Positions 37,607 through 45,160 of a stretch of DNA of 45,376 bases are shown one piece after another. The DNA is from a virus: the IMG/VR virus record IMGVR_UViG_3300001828_000020, positions 1 to 45,376 of that record. One strand, 5' to 3'. Every line of letters begins with the position of its first letter. Position 1 is the first letter of the stretch. Position numbers and translations under genes: made by a program. The notes under the pieces are model-generated. The model ran no database searches. It was not told where the DNA came from and saw nothing but the letters and a program-made list of their open reading frames with translations.

Positions 37607-38890
37607 ATGTCACAATTAACAGTTGGAACAGTTGTTACAGGAAATGCGAGTTTAACCACACAAGGTCTGAAGCTTCCATCCTTTAACAATGCGGGAAGAC
37701 CAGCAACTCCAAACATCGGTCAGTTGATTTACAACACTGATGAGGGCAAAGCTCAAATTTGGAACGGGTCTGACTGGGATGAAGTTGGCGGTGGCATTCC
37801 TGAACCAGCAAATGAAACCAGAGGTGCTTATTTAGTATCTGATGGTGAGAATGGTGTATTCTGGGCGTATCCAGGATCGACTGTAGCATCTGCTCCTCTA
37901 ACTGGATTTAGATATAGAAGTATCATTACCCATGGTTATCTAATTGCTGGATATAAAGGTTCGAATCCATGGAGAACTGTTAATAAGACTTGGCACCCAA
38001 CTGATATTACTTTCTATTGTGGCGAGCAGTTAGACAGAGCGATGACTTATGCTGACTGCACTTGGAGTGATTATTTTGGTTACGCTCATGGTTGCGTAAA
38101 CGCATTTACTGGATCATCCTCACACACATCTTCAATCAACCTACACACAAGTATGAGGAGAATGTTTGGTGACACTACTGGAAACCCTGGTGGTGGAACT
38201 TATTCTCCATCTAACTATGGTTTTGAGGGTGATGACCCTAGAGGCGTTATGGGATATAACGTTGTTGGTGGTTGGAACATGCCTGTTTCTAGAGACAGAA
38301 ACGCATGTGCTTCTGCACAAGTGCAGCAATTTGGTTACAACCTAGGTGGTGGTAACTCTGCTGTTGGTAAGTTACACTTCCCATCAGAGGTTATGTATCA
38401 GGTAGGTAACTCACCATCTGGTTCGGACCACACTGCATCTTGTGGTGATGAGAATAGATCTTGGGCATCCTTCCGTGGATCAAGACACTCCGTAGATCAC
38501 AGCAATGATTCTTGGTCTGGATGGTCTTCTAACGCTGCTCCAGATGGAGTTTGTAAGTTCCTTCCTTCTAAGTATGGTCATTTCTATTCTGGAACTGGAA
38601 ATAACGTTACATCACCATGGACTAAATACAGTGGAAGCAGTGGAGCTGGTCTGAAGAACGGAACTAAGGTTCGTTCTTATGGTGAAGAAAACTTCGAAAT
38701 GGGTCAAGACTGGGGATATATGATGGGTCAGTATGACGGTCAGCAAAACAATCACACAACCAAGTGGGATTATACTACGGACGTTGAAACTAACATGGGT
38801 GCTGCTACTCGACCAAAGGGACATTATGGACAATCATCTGGCGGTTGCTGTTCTGGTGCCGCTGCCGTTACCGTATTAAGAGCACAATAA
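37607..38890 (+). CDS. Putative adhesin / distal virion structural protein (427 aa)
   Basis: The first ~60 residues hold a unit widespread in phage fibres: LPSFNNAGRPATPNIGQLIY, then NTDEGKAQIWNGSDWDEVGG. The remaining ~330 residues are rich in Gly, Ser, His, Trp and Cys and have no obvious repeat, which suggests a compact globular tip domain. Cysteines occur at several points, including a CC pair (SGGCCSGAAAVTVLRAQ) at the end. I do not know a named family for this C-terminal part; it recalls conserved structural proteins of T4-like cyanophages. A host-binding tip is a reasonable inference because it lies between two chaperone-like genes. Its stop overlaps the next ATG by one base (TAATG). 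Confidence 0.65.
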   Translation: MSQLTVGTVVTGNASLTTQGLKLPSFNNAGRPATPNIGQLIYNTDEGKAQIWNGSDWDEVGGGIPEPANETRGAYLVSDGENGVFWAYPGSTVASAPLTGFRYRSIITHGYLIAGYKGSNPWRTVNKTWHPTDITFYCGEQLDRAMTYADCTWSDYFGYAHGCVNAFTGSSSHTSSINLHTSMRRMFGDTTGNPGGGTYSPSNYGFEGDDPRGVMGYNVVGGWNMPVSRDRNACASAQVQQFGYNLGGGNSAVGKLHFPSEVMYQVGNSPSGSDHTASCGDENRSWASFRGSRHSVDHSNDSWSGWSSNAAPDGVCKFLPSKYGHFYSGTGNNVTSPWTKYSGSSGAGLKNGTKVRSYGEENFEMGQDWGYMMGQYDGQQNNHTTKWDYTTDVETNMGAATRPKGHYGQSSGGCCSGAAAVTVLRAQ

Positions 38891-39699
38891 TGAGATATCT
38901 AATCATCAACGAGAAAGAAATTAAACCAGAGCAGTATGTCAATATGTCTGCAACTGGGGACTCTCGACTTCACTACAATGAAATTTTTTCTTTAATGCAC
39001 TTTGCGTGTGTTGAAGTTAGTGAAGAAATTTTTCAGGTAATCTCAAAAGAGTGGGAACATAAATTTACAGAGGTAAGTAAACCTCAGGCAATTAACGGTG
39101 CTAATTTCTTTGATGAGATTAGACCATTTGGTAAAGTAATGGCAACTGTTGGTGATGCAGGTTGGGCTTGGACTCCTGCTAATGATGTCCTCAAAGTTCC
39201 CGTTGAGATGACACCAGCAATCACCAAAGAAGTTGTTGACTTCAAGATTGCTTTTGCAAAAGAAATTATTGAAGATGAATATAATACTCGTTTTAGGAAT
39301 CTCAAAAGAACTTCGGATTTAGAAGTTGCTTCATGGGAAATCCAGAAGCATGAAGCAAGAGAGTGGTTGACATATAGGGGAGCAGATGGACATAGAACTC
39401 CTTTCTTAGATTATCTTGCAGGTGAAAGACAGATTGATAGAGATACTCTATCAAATAAAATTTTAGAAAAAGCAGAAGCATGGGAAGATGAACTGTCAAC
39501 CATGTTGGTTAATTATCAACTTCTCGTAAAAGAATTTGAATCCTGCGATAATATTTGGGACCTAAATACATTATACGAAGATTACTTCGGTATTATGATG
39601 CCACAACGTCAAGCGATTGATATGGGCAGAACAATCTCAGAAGAAGATTGGGACCGCAAACCTGAATATGAATTAACTCCTTATGTCTATAAATTCTGA
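38890..39699 (+). CDS. Protein with a fibre-assembly-chaperone-like helical C-terminal region (269 aa)
   Basis: The start is ATG 38890, overlapping the stop of the preceding gene; a longer in-frame start at 38845 would add 15 residues inside that gene and is less likely. Residues 1-120 (MRYLIINEKEIKPEQYVN...) are unassigned. The middle to C-terminal part is helical: VASWEIQKHEAREWL, then TPFLDYLAGERQIDRDTLSN and KILEKAEAWEDELSTML. That pattern (W..Q..EAR..L...TP.LD.LA..R.I....L...I..KA) resembles the C-terminal domain of many phage tail-fibre assembly proteins. It probably assists folding of the adhesin encoded directly upstream. Its end overlaps the next gene by 17 bases. Confidence 0.55.
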   Translation: MRYLIINEKEIKPEQYVNMSATGDSRLHYNEIFSLMHFACVEVSEEIFQVISKEWEHKFTEVSKPQAINGANFFDEIRPFGKVMATVGDAGWAWTPANDVLKVPVEMTPAITKEVVDFKIAFAKEIIEDEYNTRFRNLKRTSDLEVASWEIQKHEAREWLTYRGADGHRTPFLDYLAGERQIDRDTLSNKILEKAEAWEDELSTMLVNYQLLVKEFESCDNIWDLNTLYEDYFGIMMPQRQAIDMGRTISEEDWDRKPEYELTPYVYKF

Positions 39700-40528
39700 T
39701 GCTGATCTTTCAGATATTATATCTGATGTAAAAAATATTGTAAGTTCTGATACGGGTGAAATTAATCTTTCTAAATCATTTGTAGACGAATTCAATTTAA
39801 ATAATAAAGACTTCGAAGTTTTAGTAGGAAGTCTCCGTTTTAATAGCGGAATGACTAAGTATCAATGTGAGCATTTTGTTGCTGATACTCAACTAACTCC
39901 ATGGAGAAAAGTCCGTCAAGCTTTAATGGAACTTGAAGTTAGATACCATGCTTATATTGAAAATAGGCACAGTCTAAGGAAAGCAGAAGTTCTAAGAAAA
40001 AAACTTATCCTTAGTAAAGATCAAGAACCAGATGAGTTGAATAAAGAACTCATTCAAATTGATATGGAGAAAAATGATTATGATATCTCCATTTGGAAAA
40101 GAAAATTACGTCAATCTGAATTGGAACTTAAGTATTTTCTTGATGTTGTAGATAAGTATATTGATGAAGATCATCCACTAGAATACTTCCTAACAGAACA
40201 ACACGACGAAGAAAGAATATATTGGATTGCTCGCATGGGTAGACAAGCAGCAATGGATATTATTTCTTATGGAAGGATCGGATCTGGTAATATGACATCC
40301 ATTATGGATATGCCAGAAGAAGATCAAATCGAAGCTCTTGGTATTGCTGTTAAATACTCTGGTATGATTGGTGGTGGTATTGATAAATTGAATAAGATGG
40401 TTGCTCCACAAATTCAAGCACAACTCCGCGAAGAGGGCATTGCATTACCAAAGTTAGAGCATCATAAATATTCAGGACAGCTTCACTTAAAATCAGGAAC
40501 AGAAAATGGCGAATCAGAGGCATCTTGA
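39683..40528 (+). CDS. Unassigned mostly helical protein (281 aa)
   Basis: No family is recognised. The sequence is strongly helical and charged. Residues about 85-150 (LEVRYHAYIENRHSLRKAEV, then ELIQIDMEKNDYDISIWKRK and LRQSELELKYFL) look like a pair of long helices or a coiled coil. A second helical region (about 170-260) includes RMGRQAAMDIISYG and MDMPEEDQIEALGIAV. Only one cysteine (QCEHFV) is present, with no membrane segment or obvious catalytic motif. It starts 17 bases inside the preceding gene and its last 23 bases overlap the following one, so translation is probably coupled across all three. Its place between adhesin/chaperone genes and modifying enzymes could fit either a scaffold or an assembly factor. 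Confidence 0.6.
   Translation: MSINSDADLSDIISDVKNIVSSDTGEINLSKSFVDEFNLNNKDFEVLVGSLRFNSGMTKYQCEHFVADTQLTPWRKVRQALMELEVRYHAYIENRHSLRKAEVLRKKLILSKDQEPDELNKELIQIDMEKNDYDISIWKRKLRQSELELKYFLDVVDKYIDEDHPLEYFLTEQHDEERIYWIARMGRQAAMDIISYGRIGSGNMTSIMDMPEEDQIEALGIAVKYSGMIGGGIDKLNKMVAPQIQAQLREEGIALPKLEHHKYSGQLHLKSGTENGESEAS
40463..40470 (+). promoter_or_regulatory. Possible internal late-promoter box CATAAATA
   Basis: CATAAATA lies in the end of the preceding gene, 35 bases before the ATG at 40506. That spacing matches the intergenic late boxes (24-37 bases). If active it would give the enzyme genes extra transcription. It encodes HKY in the overlapping gene, so chance cannot be excluded. Confidence 0.4.
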
Positions 40529-40727
40529 ACTATTGGCAATTTGCCACCATTCAATCCTACAAAGATATCCAGAAACTAAAAACCTGGATGATTTGAATAG
40601 AGATAAAATGTTTGAGTTAGCAGAAAAAAATAAGCATATTCTGGATGCCAATCCAGAAGCAGAGCACATTTACATGGAGAAAGTGATTGTAGATTATGGC
40701 GATTTTCTCAATTCCAATCAACACTAA
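40506..40727 (+). CDS. Small unassigned helical protein (73 aa)
   Basis: The protein is predicted to be helical and acidic to neutral (LELLAICHHSILQRYPETKN, then LNRDKMFELAEKNKHIL, ending IVDYGDFLNSNQH), without recognisable domains. It overlaps the upstream gene by 23 bases and the downstream U32-methyltransferase gene by 32 bases. Retention of such a dense overlap suggests a real gene rather than a chance frame. Nearness to the fusion enzyme raises the possibility of an accessory subunit, but nothing in the sequence shows it. Confidence 0.55.
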   Translation: MANQRHLELLAICHHSILQRYPETKNLDDLNRDKMFELAEKNKHILDANPEAEHIYMEKVIVDYGDFLNSNQH

Positions 40728-42378
40728 GTTATCAGAAGAATTTGTAGAGGGAACTTTCATTCCTTTTTTAAAGGAATATAAACATCTCATTTACGATATG
40801 TATTTTACATGTCGTATGCCTCCCTTCACCCAAGATGCTATGGGTGATACAATTGATGGTGATATTAGAGAGACTACATTTAATGCTCTATACATTTCAG
40901 AACAAACTGGAATTCCTCTTTCTGCTACTTTCAATAATATCCAGGTGACTCCCAACCAGGAGAATCTGGATATTTTTATTGCCAATTTTAGACCATTATA
41001 TGATGCAGGGGTCCGCATTGTAACTTTACCTCATACCTCTTGGGTGATGACAGGTCAGATTCAAAAAGAATTTCCAGATCTGTTTATCAAGAACACTATC
41101 CTCAGAGAAGTAACTAGACCAAATGAGATTGTCAATCTTGCAAAGGCAGGATTCCACTATATCAATCTAGACAGAGATCTCATGCGTGACAGAGATCAAT
41201 TAGATAAGATTATGGAAGCAAAAGAATATTGTGCTTCTATTGGCAAACCAGTTAAGATCTCTTTGCTTGCTAATGAATGGTGCTGGGGTGGTTGTCCTAT
41301 CATGCCAGAACATTATCATTATAATATGCAAAGAGGTCCACAGGATCCTCAGTATTTCAATAGTGATATTAGTAGAATATCTTGCTCTAGTTGGGATGAG
41401 TATGATCCAGCTACAGCACTTAAAGCAGCAACTCTTCCTCCATGGAAAAAAGACTGGGAAGAGTTTATTGATTTGGGAATTGATGTGTTTAAAATGCATG
41501 GCAGAGAAAATGCCATGCGTCTATCAGAAACAATTGATATTATTAAACGTTGGGAATCTGGTGATGAACTCTTATATCCCCAGTTTAATGACTACATTGA
41601 AGACGTAACTCTCGAAGAGAAACCAATTGATATATGGAGAGAGAAGATCAAGACATGTGGATTTGATTGTTGGAAGTGCAACTACTGCGATTCTGTCGTT
41701 CAATCAAGAATGAAGAGAAGCGATAGAGAGATGGATTCTGATGTTAAACTTGTTCTCGAATCTATTGATAAAGCAGCAAGGGGTGATAGCAACTATAACC
41801 CAGAAGGATATAAGTATCGTGGTTTATCATCAGATACCGTTAGACATTTCTTGAATAATCTTTGTTCCAAAGAAGATGGTATATATCTAGAACTTGGAGT
41901 TCATGCTGGTAGCACATTCTTTGCTGCTACTATGGATAGAGATTTAGAGTCATTTGCGGTAGATGATTATTCTGAAAAATCAGTTTCTCCATTCAGAGAT
42001 GATTTAAGTTATGAAACATATGAAGATCCAAAAAAAGTATTCTTCAAGGGTCTAAAAGAAAAGCAATATTTCTGTCCTGTCAATATTCAAGACTTAACTC
42101 CAAGACATATCCACAAACAAGCTAATATTGTTTTCTATGACGCTAGTCATGACCCACAGGAACAGTATGATAATCTAACATATCTGATTCCAGCATTTGA
42201 TGATAAGTTTATTCTTGTTATTGATGATGCAAACTTTATGGGTGTGGTAGAATCTGCCAACTTCTTTGTCGAACAAAATAATTTAAATGTATTGTTCGAG
42301 AGAAAAATTCTTACCAAAGTTCCAGAAGATCCTAATGGATGGTGGAACGGTCTTTATATTATGGTTATTGCAAAATGA
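40696..42378 (+). CDS. U32-family (Fe-S hydroxylase-type) domain fused to a class I methyltransferase (560 aa)
   Basis: Residues about 1-300 follow the peptidase-U32-like pattern: an opening barrel part ending YDMYFTCRMP (Cys39), GVRIVTLPHTSWV, FHYINLDRDLMRDRDQL, KISLLANEWCWGGCPIMPEH (Cys196, Cys200) and GIDVFKMHGRENA. Cys39, Cys179, Cys196 and Cys200 recall the [4Fe-4S] ligand layout of the UbiV branch; Cys230 is also available. Known relatives (UbiU/UbiV, RlhA, TrhP) take part in hydroxylation, not proteolysis. A CGFDCWKCNYC cluster (321-331) marks the junction. Residues about 370-560 resemble Methyltransf_24: YLELGVHAGSTF (397-408), FAVDDYS, FYDASHDPQEQYDNL (480-494) and ILVIDDAN (506-513). 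The gene overlaps its upstream neighbour by 32 bases and the next by ATGA. The substrate is unknown; hydroxylation followed by methylation is only a hypothesis. Confidence 0.75.
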   Translation: MAIFSIPINTKLSEEFVEGTFIPFLKEYKHLIYDMYFTCRMPPFTQDAMGDTIDGDIRETTFNALYISEQTGIPLSATFNNIQVTPNQENLDIFIANFRPLYDAGVRIVTLPHTSWVMTGQIQKEFPDLFIKNTILREVTRPNEIVNLAKAGFHYINLDRDLMRDRDQLDKIMEAKEYCASIGKPVKISLLANEWCWGGCPIMPEHYHYNMQRGPQDPQYFNSDISRISCSSWDEYDPATALKAATLPPWKKDWEEFIDLGIDVFKMHGRENAMRLSETIDIIKRWESGDELLYPQFNDYIEDVTLEEKPIDIWREKIKTCGFDCWKCNYCDSVVQSRMKRSDREMDSDVKLVLESIDKAARGDSNYNPEGYKYRGLSSDTVRHFLNNLCSKEDGIYLELGVHAGSTFFAATMDRDLESFAVDDYSEKSVSPFRDDLSYETYEDPKKVFFKGLKEKQYFCPVNIQDLTPRHIHKQANIVFYDASHDPQEQYDNLTYLIPAFDDKFILVIDDANFMGVVESANFFVEQNNLNVLFERKILTKVPEDPNGWWNGLYIMVIAK

Positions 42379-42941
42379 ATTCATTCAGACATCAGTATAT
42401 GGTAATTCATCTAGATGATGATTTCTTTCCATTGTTAGAGAAAGCATTGGAACTACATACGGAATATGAACCGTGCAAAACAGATTACTGGGATGGAAAA
42501 GAATATGCCAGTAGAGATCATCAAGATCGTAGTTCCAAAGCTTGTTTCGTTGACGATAGCAAAGTCTATGAACTAGTTGATGGTCTCGTTCGATTTGCAA
42601 ACTCAAAGTGTGAGTGGAATCTAGATGTAGATTTTATCGAACCACTGCAACTAACTAAGTATGATGTCGATGATTTCTATGGTTGGCATATTGACGAATC
42701 TAATTGGACTCCAGGAAAAAGACCAAATGGTAGAATTAGAAAGATTAGTTTCTCTATTCTTTTGAACGATGAGTTTGAAGGGGGAGAATTTCAAATTAAA
42801 ACTAATGAACTAAAAACAATTGATCTAAAGAAAAAAGATATCATACTCTTTCATGCTGATACACCACATCAAGTTACTCCTGTAACTTCTGGTGTTAGGC
42901 ACTCTTTAGTTGGATGGACTCAAGGACCAGCATACCGATGA
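42375..42941 (+). CDS. 2OG-Fe(II) oxygenase, PKHD-hydroxylase type (188 aa)
   Basis: This is a double-stranded beta-helix dioxygenase. It has YGWHIDESN with Fe ligands His105 and Asp107, the strand RKISFSILLNDEFEGGEFQI, the distal His165 in FHADTPHQVTPV, and Arg175 in GVRHSLVGW as the likely 2-oxoglutarate anchor. This layout (HxD, GGEF, PHxVxPVxxGxRxSLVGW) is that of PKHD-type prolyl or related hydroxylases. The enzyme uses O2 and 2-oxoglutarate to hydroxylate a substrate; which one cannot be read from sequence. The start ATG 42375 sits in an ATGA overlap with the previous stop; a longer frame from 42339 would add 12 residues inside the upstream gene. It is the first of five oxygenase genes. 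Confidence 0.85.
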   Translation: MNSFRHQYMVIHLDDDFFPLLEKALELHTEYEPCKTDYWDGKEYASRDHQDRSSKACFVDDSKVYELVDGLVRFANSKCEWNLDVDFIEPLQLTKYDVDDFYGWHIDESNWTPGKRPNGRIRKISFSILLNDEFEGGEFQIKTNELKTIDLKKKDIILFHADTPHQVTPVTSGVRHSLVGWTQGPAYR

Positions 42942-43501
42942 AATTTATTAAAGAATATCAGTTAGACGATCTAACAATTTGCGATAAACTTATAGAACTA
43001 TTTTGGGACGCTCATGAAAAAGAGTTGACTTACGCTGGTCGTGTAGGCGGTGGCAGTGTTATTCCAGAAATTAAAAAAAGTATTGATTTCTTTGTAGAAG
43101 AAGGTGGAGAACTAGGTCCACCAGAAAAATACAAATTTGATTTATATAAGAATCAGTTGGATGGATTTATATCTCAATACTTGAGAGAATTGAATATTGA
43201 GAATCAAGAATTTGTAATGAAGCGTCTACCACAAATTCAATACTATAAACCAGGAGATGGGTTTTATACTTGGCATGTAGATGGATCTGGTTCTGATGGA
43301 TGTGATAGAGCATTTGTTTTTATTACATACTTGAATGATGTTCCTGGTGGAGGAACTGAGTTTTTCTATCAAGACTACACCGTAGAAGCAAAGAAGGGAA
43401 ATACAGTTATTTTCCCAGCTGGTCTGACACATAAACATAGAGGTCAGATATCAGAAGAGCATGAAAAATATATTATGACAGGATGGCTTTGGTGGGTATG
43501 A
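42938..43501 (+). CDS. 2OG-Fe(II) oxygenase, prolyl-4-hydroxylase-like (187 aa)
   Basis: Fe ligands are His113 and Asp115 in FYTWHVDGSG and His165 in FPAGLTHKHRG. The core strands FVFITYLNDVPGGGTEFFY are typical of prolyl-4-hydroxylase-like enzymes, and Lys177 (EKYIMTGWLWW) stands where these enzymes use Lys to bind 2-oxoglutarate. The N-terminal ~95 residues form a helical part starting MKFIKEYQLDDLTICDKLI. The chosen ATG 42938 overlaps the previous stop as ATGA; a start at 42914 would add eight residues within the upstream gene. A protein substrate such as proline is possible by family analogy, but free amino acids or other molecules cannot be excluded. Confidence 0.85.
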   Translation: MKFIKEYQLDDLTICDKLIELFWDAHEKELTYAGRVGGGSVIPEIKKSIDFFVEEGGELGPPEKYKFDLYKNQLDGFISQYLRELNIENQEFVMKRLPQIQYYKPGDGFYTWHVDGSGSDGCDRAFVFITYLNDVPGGGTEFFYQDYTVEAKKGNTVIFPAGLTHKHRGQISEEHEKYIMTGWLWWV

Positions 43502-44079
43502 TTGAACCTATTGTTATTAAAGATGTATTATCAGAATCCGAAAGACTGACATTATGGGATTACTTTGATCGCAAATCTCCCTCAATGAATAGTCTTGCTA
43601 CATGGACTTACAACAACGCTTCATACGGTAAAGGTGATCCTGTCTCATGGCAACATCCTCTTAGAACCGATTTAATTTTTACCAAGTGTGCTACTACAGT
43701 AAAATTAAAAATGATGAAGCACCTACGCAGAGATCTTAAACTTTGTAAGATTCATGCTAACGGTCAAACAGCAGGACAGAATACTCTTTTCCACAGAGAC
43801 TGGGAAGAACATAATGTATGGACTTTTATCTATTTCAATCAACCATATTGGAATATTGAATGGGGTGGTGAGTTTGTATGCCAGACTCCCGATGAAGAAT
43901 ACCACTTCACTCCATATGTTCCAAACACAGGGGTGTTCATTCCATCTAACTGGTTGCATAAAGGACAACCACCAAACAGCTTGATTGGAAATGAAATCAG
44001 GACTACAATTGCTTTTTCTTTTTGTGATCCAGATATTCATGATAAGATTATCGCACAGACAACAAGAAAATGGTATTAG
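43498..44079 (+). CDS. 2OG-Fe(II) oxygenase with HxD...H...R site (193 aa)
   Basis: The active-site set is His99 and Asp101 in LFHRDWEEHNVW, distal His154 in FIPSNWLHKGQPP, and Arg168 in EIRTTIAFSF. The central strands WTFIYFNQPYWNIEWGGEFV match the usual jelly-roll core. The preference for several Trp around the site (TWTYNNASYG, WEEHNVW) differs from the two preceding paralogues, so the substrate is probably different. The start at 43498 overlaps the previous stop as ATGA; five extra residues would come from an upstream ATG at 43483. The gene overlaps the next by 10 bases. Confidence 0.8.
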   Translation: MIEPIVIKDVLSESERLTLWDYFDRKSPSMNSLATWTYNNASYGKGDPVSWQHPLRTDLIFTKCATTVKLKMMKHLRRDLKLCKIHANGQTAGQNTLFHRDWEEHNVWTFIYFNQPYWNIEWGGEFVCQTPDEEYHFTPYVPNTGVFIPSNWLHKGQPPNSLIGNEIRTTIAFSFCDPDIHDKIIAQTTRKWY

Positions 44080-44558
44080 GAATCAGAGAGTATCCAGTTG
44101 ATATACAACCAGATGATCTAGTCAATTTTATTGACACATTATCATACACAGATCATCCCCATGTTACAAAGACGGATGATAATTTTCTGGAGCATGATGT
44201 TCCAGTAATTAAAAAACTTCGATGGTCTTTCTATGATGCTTGCTCTAGATATTGGGGTATGGACGTATTTGATTTTAATATAGATGCTTGGGTGTATGTT
44301 GATTGGAAAGGCAATAAAAATGAACCATACATGCACGCACATAACTTAGAGAATCCATATACGTTATCTGGTATAATGTATCTTACTCTTCCTGGCAATT
44401 CTGAAACTACGATGTTTCCTATTCCAAAAAGAGATCCATATTTTTTACCGAAGAAATTATTTACATGGTTCATATTCCCTTCAAATTTACCACACCTTCC
44501 TGGAAAAGGAGATGAGGATGAAAAACGTTATTGTCTCAGTGCCGATTTATACGCATGA
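44070..44558 (+). CDS. Putative 2OG-Fe(II) oxygenase, HxH variant (162 aa)
   Basis: The C-terminal half fits the small putative oxygenase family with an HxHxN entry: NEPYMHAHNLENPYTLSGIM (His89, His91), then YLTLPGNSETTMFP, FTWFIFPSNLPHLPG (distal His142) and KRYCLSADLYA (Arg153). The usual Asp of the HxD pair is replaced by His, as is common in this family, so metal ligation needs care. The N-terminal ~80 residues contain a predicted substrate-side region (WSFYDACSRYWGMDVFDFN). The start overlaps the upstream gene by 10 bases and the end overlaps the next as ATGA. Confidence 0.7.
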   Translation: MVLGIREYPVDIQPDDLVNFIDTLSYTDHPHVTKTDDNFLEHDVPVIKKLRWSFYDACSRYWGMDVFDFNIDAWVYVDWKGNKNEPYMHAHNLENPYTLSGIMYLTLPGNSETTMFPIPKRDPYFLPKKLFTWFIFPSNLPHLPGKGDEDEKRYCLSADLYA

Positions 44559-45160
44559 TTTATAATCAAAGTAACTTGACATTTGTATCCGAGAAGATAC
44601 CAGAAAATCTATACCAGAGTCTTCTTGCTTACACAAAGAAAAGAAGAAAGGATGAGACATGGAACTACAACGGAAGACTGGCTGGTGCTCTAGAACAGCA
44701 GTCAAGTTTATCTGAGTGGGTATATGAATGTCCTGGATTAGAAGAATATCTAATCAGTCTCTCAACTCAATTGTGGTCTGAGGTATATGAAACATGCCCT
44801 TGGGATTTCCAACAAACAAATGATGTTACTCCATATATTAAACTAAGAAATTTGTGGGTGAACTACCAAAGGAAGAATGAGTATAATCCTATGCATACTC
44901 ATTCTGGTATAGTAAGCTTTGTTATCTTCACAGACATTCCATACGGTCCAGAAGAAAGAAATACTCACAGAAGTAATGGAGCATTTCAATTAGAAGCAGA
45001 AGTATTACCTGTTGACAAATCATGGAATGGTGTTATACTAATGTTTCCTTCTACAACCAAACACGCTGTATACCCCTTTAAGTCTACAGATACTGAGAGA
45101 GTCACAGTTTCGGGTAACCTCACATGGAACGTGGAAGGACCAGATGAAGAGCACTACTAA
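44555..45160 (+). CDS. Putative 2OG-Fe(II) oxygenase, HxH variant (201 aa)
   Basis: The sequence LWVNYQRKNEYNPMHTHSGI carries His114 and His116. It is followed by the strand VSFVIFTDIPYG, MFPSTTKHAVYPF (distal His170) and ERVTVSGNLTWNV (Arg182). This is the same HxH-type subgroup as the preceding gene, here with a fuller N-terminal part (residues 1-95, with RRKDETWNYNGRLAGALEQQ). A prediction of enzymatic activity is reasonable but not certain. The start at 44555 overlaps the preceding stop as ATGA; a start at 44531 would add eight residues. Its stop codon forms part of a late-promoter box, so it closes the operon. Confidence 0.75.
   Translation: MIYNQSNLTFVSEKIPENLYQSLLAYTKKRRKDETWNYNGRLAGALEQQSSLSEWVYECPGLEEYLISLSTQLWSEVYETCPWDFQQTNDVTPYIKLRNLWVNYQRKNEYNPMHTHSGIVSFVIFTDIPYGPEERNTHRSNGAFQLEAEVLPVDKSWNGVILMFPSTTKHAVYPFKSTDTERVTVSGNLTWNVEGPDEEHY

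Follow-up and report, generated by a model that had tools for sequence, protein, structure and literature searches.

We analyzed an IMG/VR virus record in its entirety (the window, a linear sequence of 45,376 bases). On its + strand, a single uninterrupted reading frame runs from an ATG at 40696 to a stop at 42378 and encodes a 560-residue protein, in which an N-terminal TIM barrel with two groups of cysteines (residues 1–340; 40696..41715, +) is followed by a C-terminal domain resembling Rossmann-type O-methyltransferases (residues 376–560; 41821..42375, +). The start of this fusion gene is overlapped by a 73-residue ORF (40506..40727, +), which has homologues in 45 of the 97 loci with room for it and no Pfam or PHROG match; Pfam rules it out as a chorismate mutase. 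A homologue of GC353 (39683..40528, +) lies directly upstream, preceded by a GC352-like gene (38845..39699, +; phrog_1604) and a GC351-like gene ('sericin 1 precursor-like'; 37607..38890, +; phrog_1417) that adjoins the tail-fibre genes. Downstream of the fusion gene, positions 42339–45160 hold five consecutive 2OG-Fe(II) oxygenase genes; the third belongs to phrog_274, whose name, 'DNA endonuclease V', is probably a misannotation because Pfam matches 2OG-FeII_Oxy_3.

The fusion protein belongs to PHROG 1458 (phrog_1458, E 6e-236), the cyanophage family 'T4-LIKE GC 354', a label carried by homologues in Syn33, S-ShM2 and P-HM2 that are annotated as 'hypothetical protein'. The PHROG entry gives its function as unknown, and our literature searches found neither a described function for the family nor a paper describing a cyanophage U32 protein. 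The family is already catalogued but unnamed, and its catalogue entry assigns neither domains nor function. Full-length fused homologues, 50–57% identical to the window protein, are present in 123 isolate cyanophage records; in IMG/VR, at least 97 loci carry one. With approximately 390 cyanophage-named records having a baseplate gene, a gene without an assigned function is thus found in about a third of T4-like cyanophage records. The nearest homologue, on an independent contig (L001), is 96% identical, with 78 of 96 substitutions at third codon positions in the N-terminal domain and 39 of 44 in the C-terminal domain. The cyanophage gene block is also carried by two MAG contigs labelled Euryarchaeota (L086) and Dehalococcoidia (L087), which are probably misbinned phage contigs.

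These data bear on several claims of the earlier note. Because the full-length fusion recurs in 123 phage records and on an independent contig, the assembly chimera that it had raised as a concern is excluded; the fusion gene encodes a real, conserved protein. The domain pair that it proposed to look for in marine phages is there and always fused, as both domains are present in every complete phage copy examined. Its description of a late operon is apt, since baseplate-wedge, virion-structural and tail-fibre genes lie on the window's + strand. Its remark that it knew of no described phage enzyme with this pairing holds for function, as far as our literature searches show, but overlooks the catalogued family, and what is new is the domain fusion inside an already known superfamily.

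We modelled the N-terminal domain alone with AlphaFold2 and obtained an eight-stranded TIM barrel (pTM 0.80) with low confidence in the cysteine loops. Foldseek matched this domain to many TIM barrels, with methylenetetrahydrofolate reductase (MTHFR) first by E-value for the isolated domain and also high for the whole protein, while the U32 protein Mk0906 (5d88) had the highest TM-scores among the best barrel matches (TM 0.47/0.62, E 5e-6). Therefore, the fold by itself is not specific for U32, and the E-value ranking would favour a coincidence in which the barrel merely shares its fold with U32 and is unrelated to it, as MTHFR is. Direct searches of the domain against Pfam and NCBIfam HMMs and PDB sequences returned no match, including a direct HMMER search of the window protein for U32 (PF01136).

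Sequence profiles are specific. Profile–profile comparisons were carried out with hhalign in local mode, using reversed profiles and decoys as controls. The N-terminal domain matched its standalone bacterial homologues (98.5%, E 2e-15), the bacterial family matched UbiU (93%), RlhA (86%) and TrhP (82%), and a combined profile matched TrhP (96%), UbiU (96%) and RlhA (94%), while reversed-profile controls remained below 1%. Using single-sequence templates, the combined profile matched TrhP at 71% and RlhA at 51%, compared to at most 1.6% for E. coli decoys that included the barrels TrpA, TrpC, MetF and PykF; when the bacterial profile alone was used in the single-sequence test, one decoy, PykF, reached 4.5%. 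By an independent route, the domain also matched a homologue from Straboviridae (92.5%, E 5e-7) that itself passes PF01136 (E 2.7e-11), a cut-off passed only by the Straboviridae relatives and not by the window protein. In the profile comparisons U32 scores far ahead of MetF and the other barrels, one family member passes PF01136, and a U32 structure has the best TM-scores; an MTHFR-like or other generic TIM barrel is ruled out by the comparison with decoys. A fold coincidence is accordingly a very improbable explanation of the U32 match, and largely refuted. Judged by its profiles, which rank U32 clearly above other TIM barrels, the N-terminal domain belongs to that superfamily, as a divergent branch because the canonical cysteine motif is missing.

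That motif, CX6CX15CX3/4C (PMC6747719), is retained in the window protein only in its CX3C half, the CX6C half being absent. We counted conservation across 58 unique homologues and found that C196, C200, C230, C321, C325, C328 and C331 are invariant (58/58), while C39 is kept in 56 (Ser in Syn33, Thr in P-RSM1) and C179 in 57. C179 is probably not a ligand, because the bacterial homologue L088 lacks it and the bacterial family as a whole has not fixed it. The first candidate Fe-S group then comprises C39 after barrel strand 2 (codon at 40810..40812, +), C196-X3-C200 after strand 7 (41281..41295, +) and C230 (codon at 41383..41385, +). When the bacterial family is aligned with TrhP by hhalign, the CX3C pair falls on TrhP C193-X3-C197, and the bacterial family has an invariant cysteine, C225, in the same loop as C230. 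On our reading of the alignments, the remaining ligand of this group seems to change place between lineages: cyanophages have it behind strand 2 (C39), the bacterial family behind strand 3 (C81, 31/31) and Straboviridae inside the strand-7 loop. A UbiV-type quinone hydroxylase does not fit: although C39 stands at the same place as C39 of UbiV, the UbiV motif CXnCX12CX3C is not found, with no clear counterpart of UbiV C180 at X12, and the hhalign match to UbiV is weak (0.4% for the N-terminal domain and 22% for the combined profile).

A second quartet, C321-X3-C325-X2-C328-X2-C331 (41656..41688, +), is a candidate second [4Fe-4S] site. Its CX3CX2CX2C spacing is the same in 30 of 31 bacterial homologues and becomes CX4CX3CX2C in Straboviridae, so that the quartet is common to the cyanophage, bacterial and Straboviridae members; E. 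coli-type U32 families do not have it among their conserved cysteines. Because the quartet spans the whole branch, unlike those families, two [4Fe-4S] clusters are likely in this group of barrels.

The C-terminal domain was matched by Foldseek to CCoAOMT/COMT-type enzymes. Methyltransf_24 (PF13578) is sub-threshold in the window protein (E 0.0013, 22.6 of 26.3 bits; E 2e-4 for the domain alone); 16 out of 19 members of the family pass the cut-off, the best at E 1.2e-8. The domain's profile had no meaningful match among PDB sequences. Invariant residues across the 58 sequences are G401, G405, D423, D482, D510, D511, N513, W550, N551 and G552. By analogy, we assign G401 and G405 to the glycine-rich SAM loop, D423 to the acidic ribose-binding residue and D482...D510-D511 to the acidic site. 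On its Pfam matches and conserved residues, the domain falls in Methyltransf_24, among the class I SAM-dependent methyltransferases, and its SAM-site and acidic motifs are intact. It diverges more quickly than the barrel (mean pairwise identity of 55%, compared to 75%) and has no signs of decay. Many members of Methyltransf_24 work on small molecules or sugars.

Much of the architecture proposed in the earlier note is therefore sound: a U32-related barrel is followed by a Rossmann-type second half, as predicted, within a late tail operon. Its U32 assignment had to be reached by a chain of profiles through intermediates in place of a direct HMMER match, and the protein departs from the canonical U32 cysteine motif. 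The cysteines that it listed (39, 179, 196, 200 and 230) are at those positions, but C179 is an unlikely ligand and the invariant quartet at 321–331 had been missed.

Relatives in Straboviridae provide a functional context for the barrel. Their gene has arabinose-5-phosphate isomerase / nucleotidyltransferase genes on one side and a thymidylate-synthase-like gene on the other, a type of cluster that corresponds to arabinosyl-5-hydroxycytosine DNA (PMC13390438; PMC6024577), and a weak U32 match of RB69ORF050c was already noted in 2006 (PMC1524935). A chorismate mutase (CM_2, E 2.4e-10 in CIP9) often lies beside the U32-like gene, with homologues in 51 records, and is within approximately 500 bases of it wherever both positions are listed. 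Loci in which a U32-like 'peptidase' neighbours the small chorismate mutase include L229:7911-9313, L230:7920-9564 and L253:4257-5662. At this place RB69 has an unrelated 79-residue ORF; Pfam gives no chorismate mutase match for its small ORF049c, which adjoins the U32 gene. The adjacency of 'peptidase' and chorismate mutase in 51 records suggests local production of prephenate to feed a hydroxylation in arabinosyl-hydroxycytosine-type Straboviridae. Prephenate is the product of chorismate mutase; TrhP and RlhA require it, and their U32 motif has been implicated in pyrimidine C5 hydroxylation (PMC6599085). Together, the chorismate mutase linkage and this requirement indirectly support an O2-independent first step by the barrel. 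No chorismate mutase was found in six cyanophage records carrying the fusion, so prephenate would need a host source.

We consider the chances even that the fusion is a late-expressed modifying enzyme with two activities, one that couples O2-independent U32-type hydroxylation to O-methylation. We infer that it would bind Fe-S clusters, use prephenate for hydroxylation, and carry out both hydroxylation and O-methylation on a shared substrate. The first cluster (C196, C200, C230 and usually C39) would be held at the barrel's C-terminal mouth and the second on the C-terminal tail (C321–C331). The barrel would install a hydroxyl without O2, in the manner of TrhP and RlhA, with prephenate supplied by the host shikimate pathway, and the tethered Methyltransf_24 domain would then use SAM to convert the new hydroxyl into a methoxy group, much as TrmR follows TrhP1/TrhP2. 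The precedent comes from B. subtilis, where one operon encodes both TrhP1/TrhP2, the U32 proteins that produce ho5U34, and TrmR, which O-methylates it to mo5U34 (PMC6599085). Hydroxylation followed by O-methylation is plausible by analogy, through the chorismate mutase linkage, the prephenate requirement of TrhP and RlhA, and the TrmR precedent. The leading options for the substrate would be a component of the tail-fibre module (GC351–353) or a nucleic acid (a tRNA or DNA pyrimidine).

Several observations weigh against this bifunctional enzyme. The N-terminal domain lacks a direct HMM match to U32, the CX6C half of the motif is missing, and C39 is replaced by Ser or Thr in two members. The six fusion-carrying records encode no chorismate mutase, and the cysteine numbers of UbiV agree by position while the direct profile match to UbiV is weak. 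The fusion gene also keeps company with tail-fibre-associated genes, and we know of no characterised U32 hydroxylase that travels with such genes. Finally, the neighbours of the bacterial relatives make other redox chemistry possible.

Among the bacterial U32-like genes (L233–L252), 9 of 20 loci have an adjacent QueG/reductive-dehalogenase-like Fe-S protein, and 6 of 20 an IclR regulator. This setting, together with a second quartet that classical U32 families lack and an altered first motif, would fit a branch with two clusters that performs some other redox or radical reaction, with the methyltransferase working at another site or on another substrate. We regard such a non-hydroxylating Fe-S enzyme as rather unlikely; the Straboviridae relatives belong to this branch and share its second quartet, yet their genes go with chorismate mutase and hydroxycytosine clusters. 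As a separate observation, the Victivallales neighbourhood of U32-like, QueG/RDH-like and IclR genes resembles an uncharacterised metabolic module, and two genomes hold tandem arrays of five (L251) and three (L252) U32-like paralogues. Single-protein queries of IMG/VR with the bacterial proteins L158 and L088 found no viral relatives.

Returning to the hydroxylase–methyltransferase reading, its substrate was examined through gene linkage. The GC351, GC352 and GC353 genes are upstream of the fusion gene in 59 of 63, 72 of 79 and 83 of 87 loci with room for them, respectively. GC353 is its linked partner, found in 123 phage records out of approximately 390 with a baseplate gene and with the same split across organisms as the fusion gene, as compared by count and split. 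Tail fibre genes precede this block, and the five oxygenase genes follow the fusion. These linkages would be explained if the enzyme modifies the virion, for instance hydroxylating and methylating adhesin side chains or glycans of the GC351–353 module along with the downstream 2OG-Fe(II) oxygenases, which we hold to be possible but not probable. The synteny of late genes can nevertheless last without a common substrate, and in S-ShM2 the fusion gene is approximately 5.8 kb away from GC353. Moreover, to our knowledge no U32 protein hydroxylates proteins or glycans.

Alternatively, the enzyme could hypermodify nucleic acid, with the U32 domain hydroxylating C5 of a pyrimidine in tRNA or phage DNA and the C-terminal domain methylating it to a 5-methoxy pyrimidine. 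In cyanophages, no other DNA- or tRNA-modification gene consistently adjoins the fusion, and the C-terminal domain is closest to Methyltransf_24, with its many small-molecule and sugar enzymes; we treat this substrate as a possibility of modest weight. The chemistry of TrhP, RlhA and TrmR points towards it (PMC6599085), as do the Straboviridae relatives, which reside in 5-hydroxycytosine DNA clusters that contain a thymidylate-synthase-like gene and, in many cases, a chorismate mutase (PMC13390438). However, the thymidylate-synthase homologue, and not the U32-like protein, is the reported 5-hydroxy-dCMP synthase of Mosigvirus (PMC13390438). Because linkage favours the tail module and family chemistry favours nucleic acid, we leave the two substrates about equal. 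Both overlap with the bifunctional-enzyme reading on mechanism, and consequently the confidences that we attach to these readings do not sum to one.

We propose, with less than even confidence, that a single polypeptide combines O2-independent hydroxylation by a two-cluster U32 barrel with O-methylation of the new hydroxyl, giving a methoxy group on a virion component or a nucleic acid, a modification that would be new to phages. If this is true, a single phage protein unites two steps that bacteria split between enzymes of the same operon, and an O2-independent hydroxylase has been recruited by phages of oxygen-producing hosts. The comparison also unites the RB69-type coliphage 'peptidase' genes, cyanophage GC354 and the bacterial family in a single branch of U32 that has a second cysteine quartet. 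The chorismate mutase link makes the oxygen source of phage hydroxypyrimidines a testable question.

Known systems share parts of this arrangement. TrhP (YegQ), or TrhP1/TrhP2 with TrmR, similarly employs a U32 barrel and then an O-methyltransferase in consecutive steps (PMC6599085), but as separate proteins with the canonical four-cysteine motif, one cluster motif and tRNA U34 as the substrate. In UbiV, a CX3C pair is likewise preceded by an upstream cysteine, C39 (PMC6747719), and UbiU and UbiV act in anaerobic hydroxylation; unlike the window protein, they form a heterodimer and have neither the second quartet nor a methyltransferase. The Straboviridae 'U32 family peptidase' (RB69p050, CIP9 gp147), also from T4-like phages, has a homologous barrel with the strand-7 cysteines and the C-terminal quartet, but it passes PF01136, stands alone without a methyltransferase, and is found in a DNA-modification cluster, often with a chorismate mutase. 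The bacterial relatives also lack the methyltransferase domain: L088, from a Victivallales MAG, is the only close standalone copy (39% identity) and has all eight candidate ligand cysteines, while L157 and L158 (Victivallales or the same phylum) share the CX3C pair, the loop cysteine and CX3CX2CX2C, with the upstream cysteine of the first group after strand 3 and not strand 2 in L157-type proteins. The O-methyltransferase-like domains of Methyltransf_24 (PF13578) have the same SAM-site and acidic motifs as the C-terminal domain, which here is fused to a U32-like barrel.
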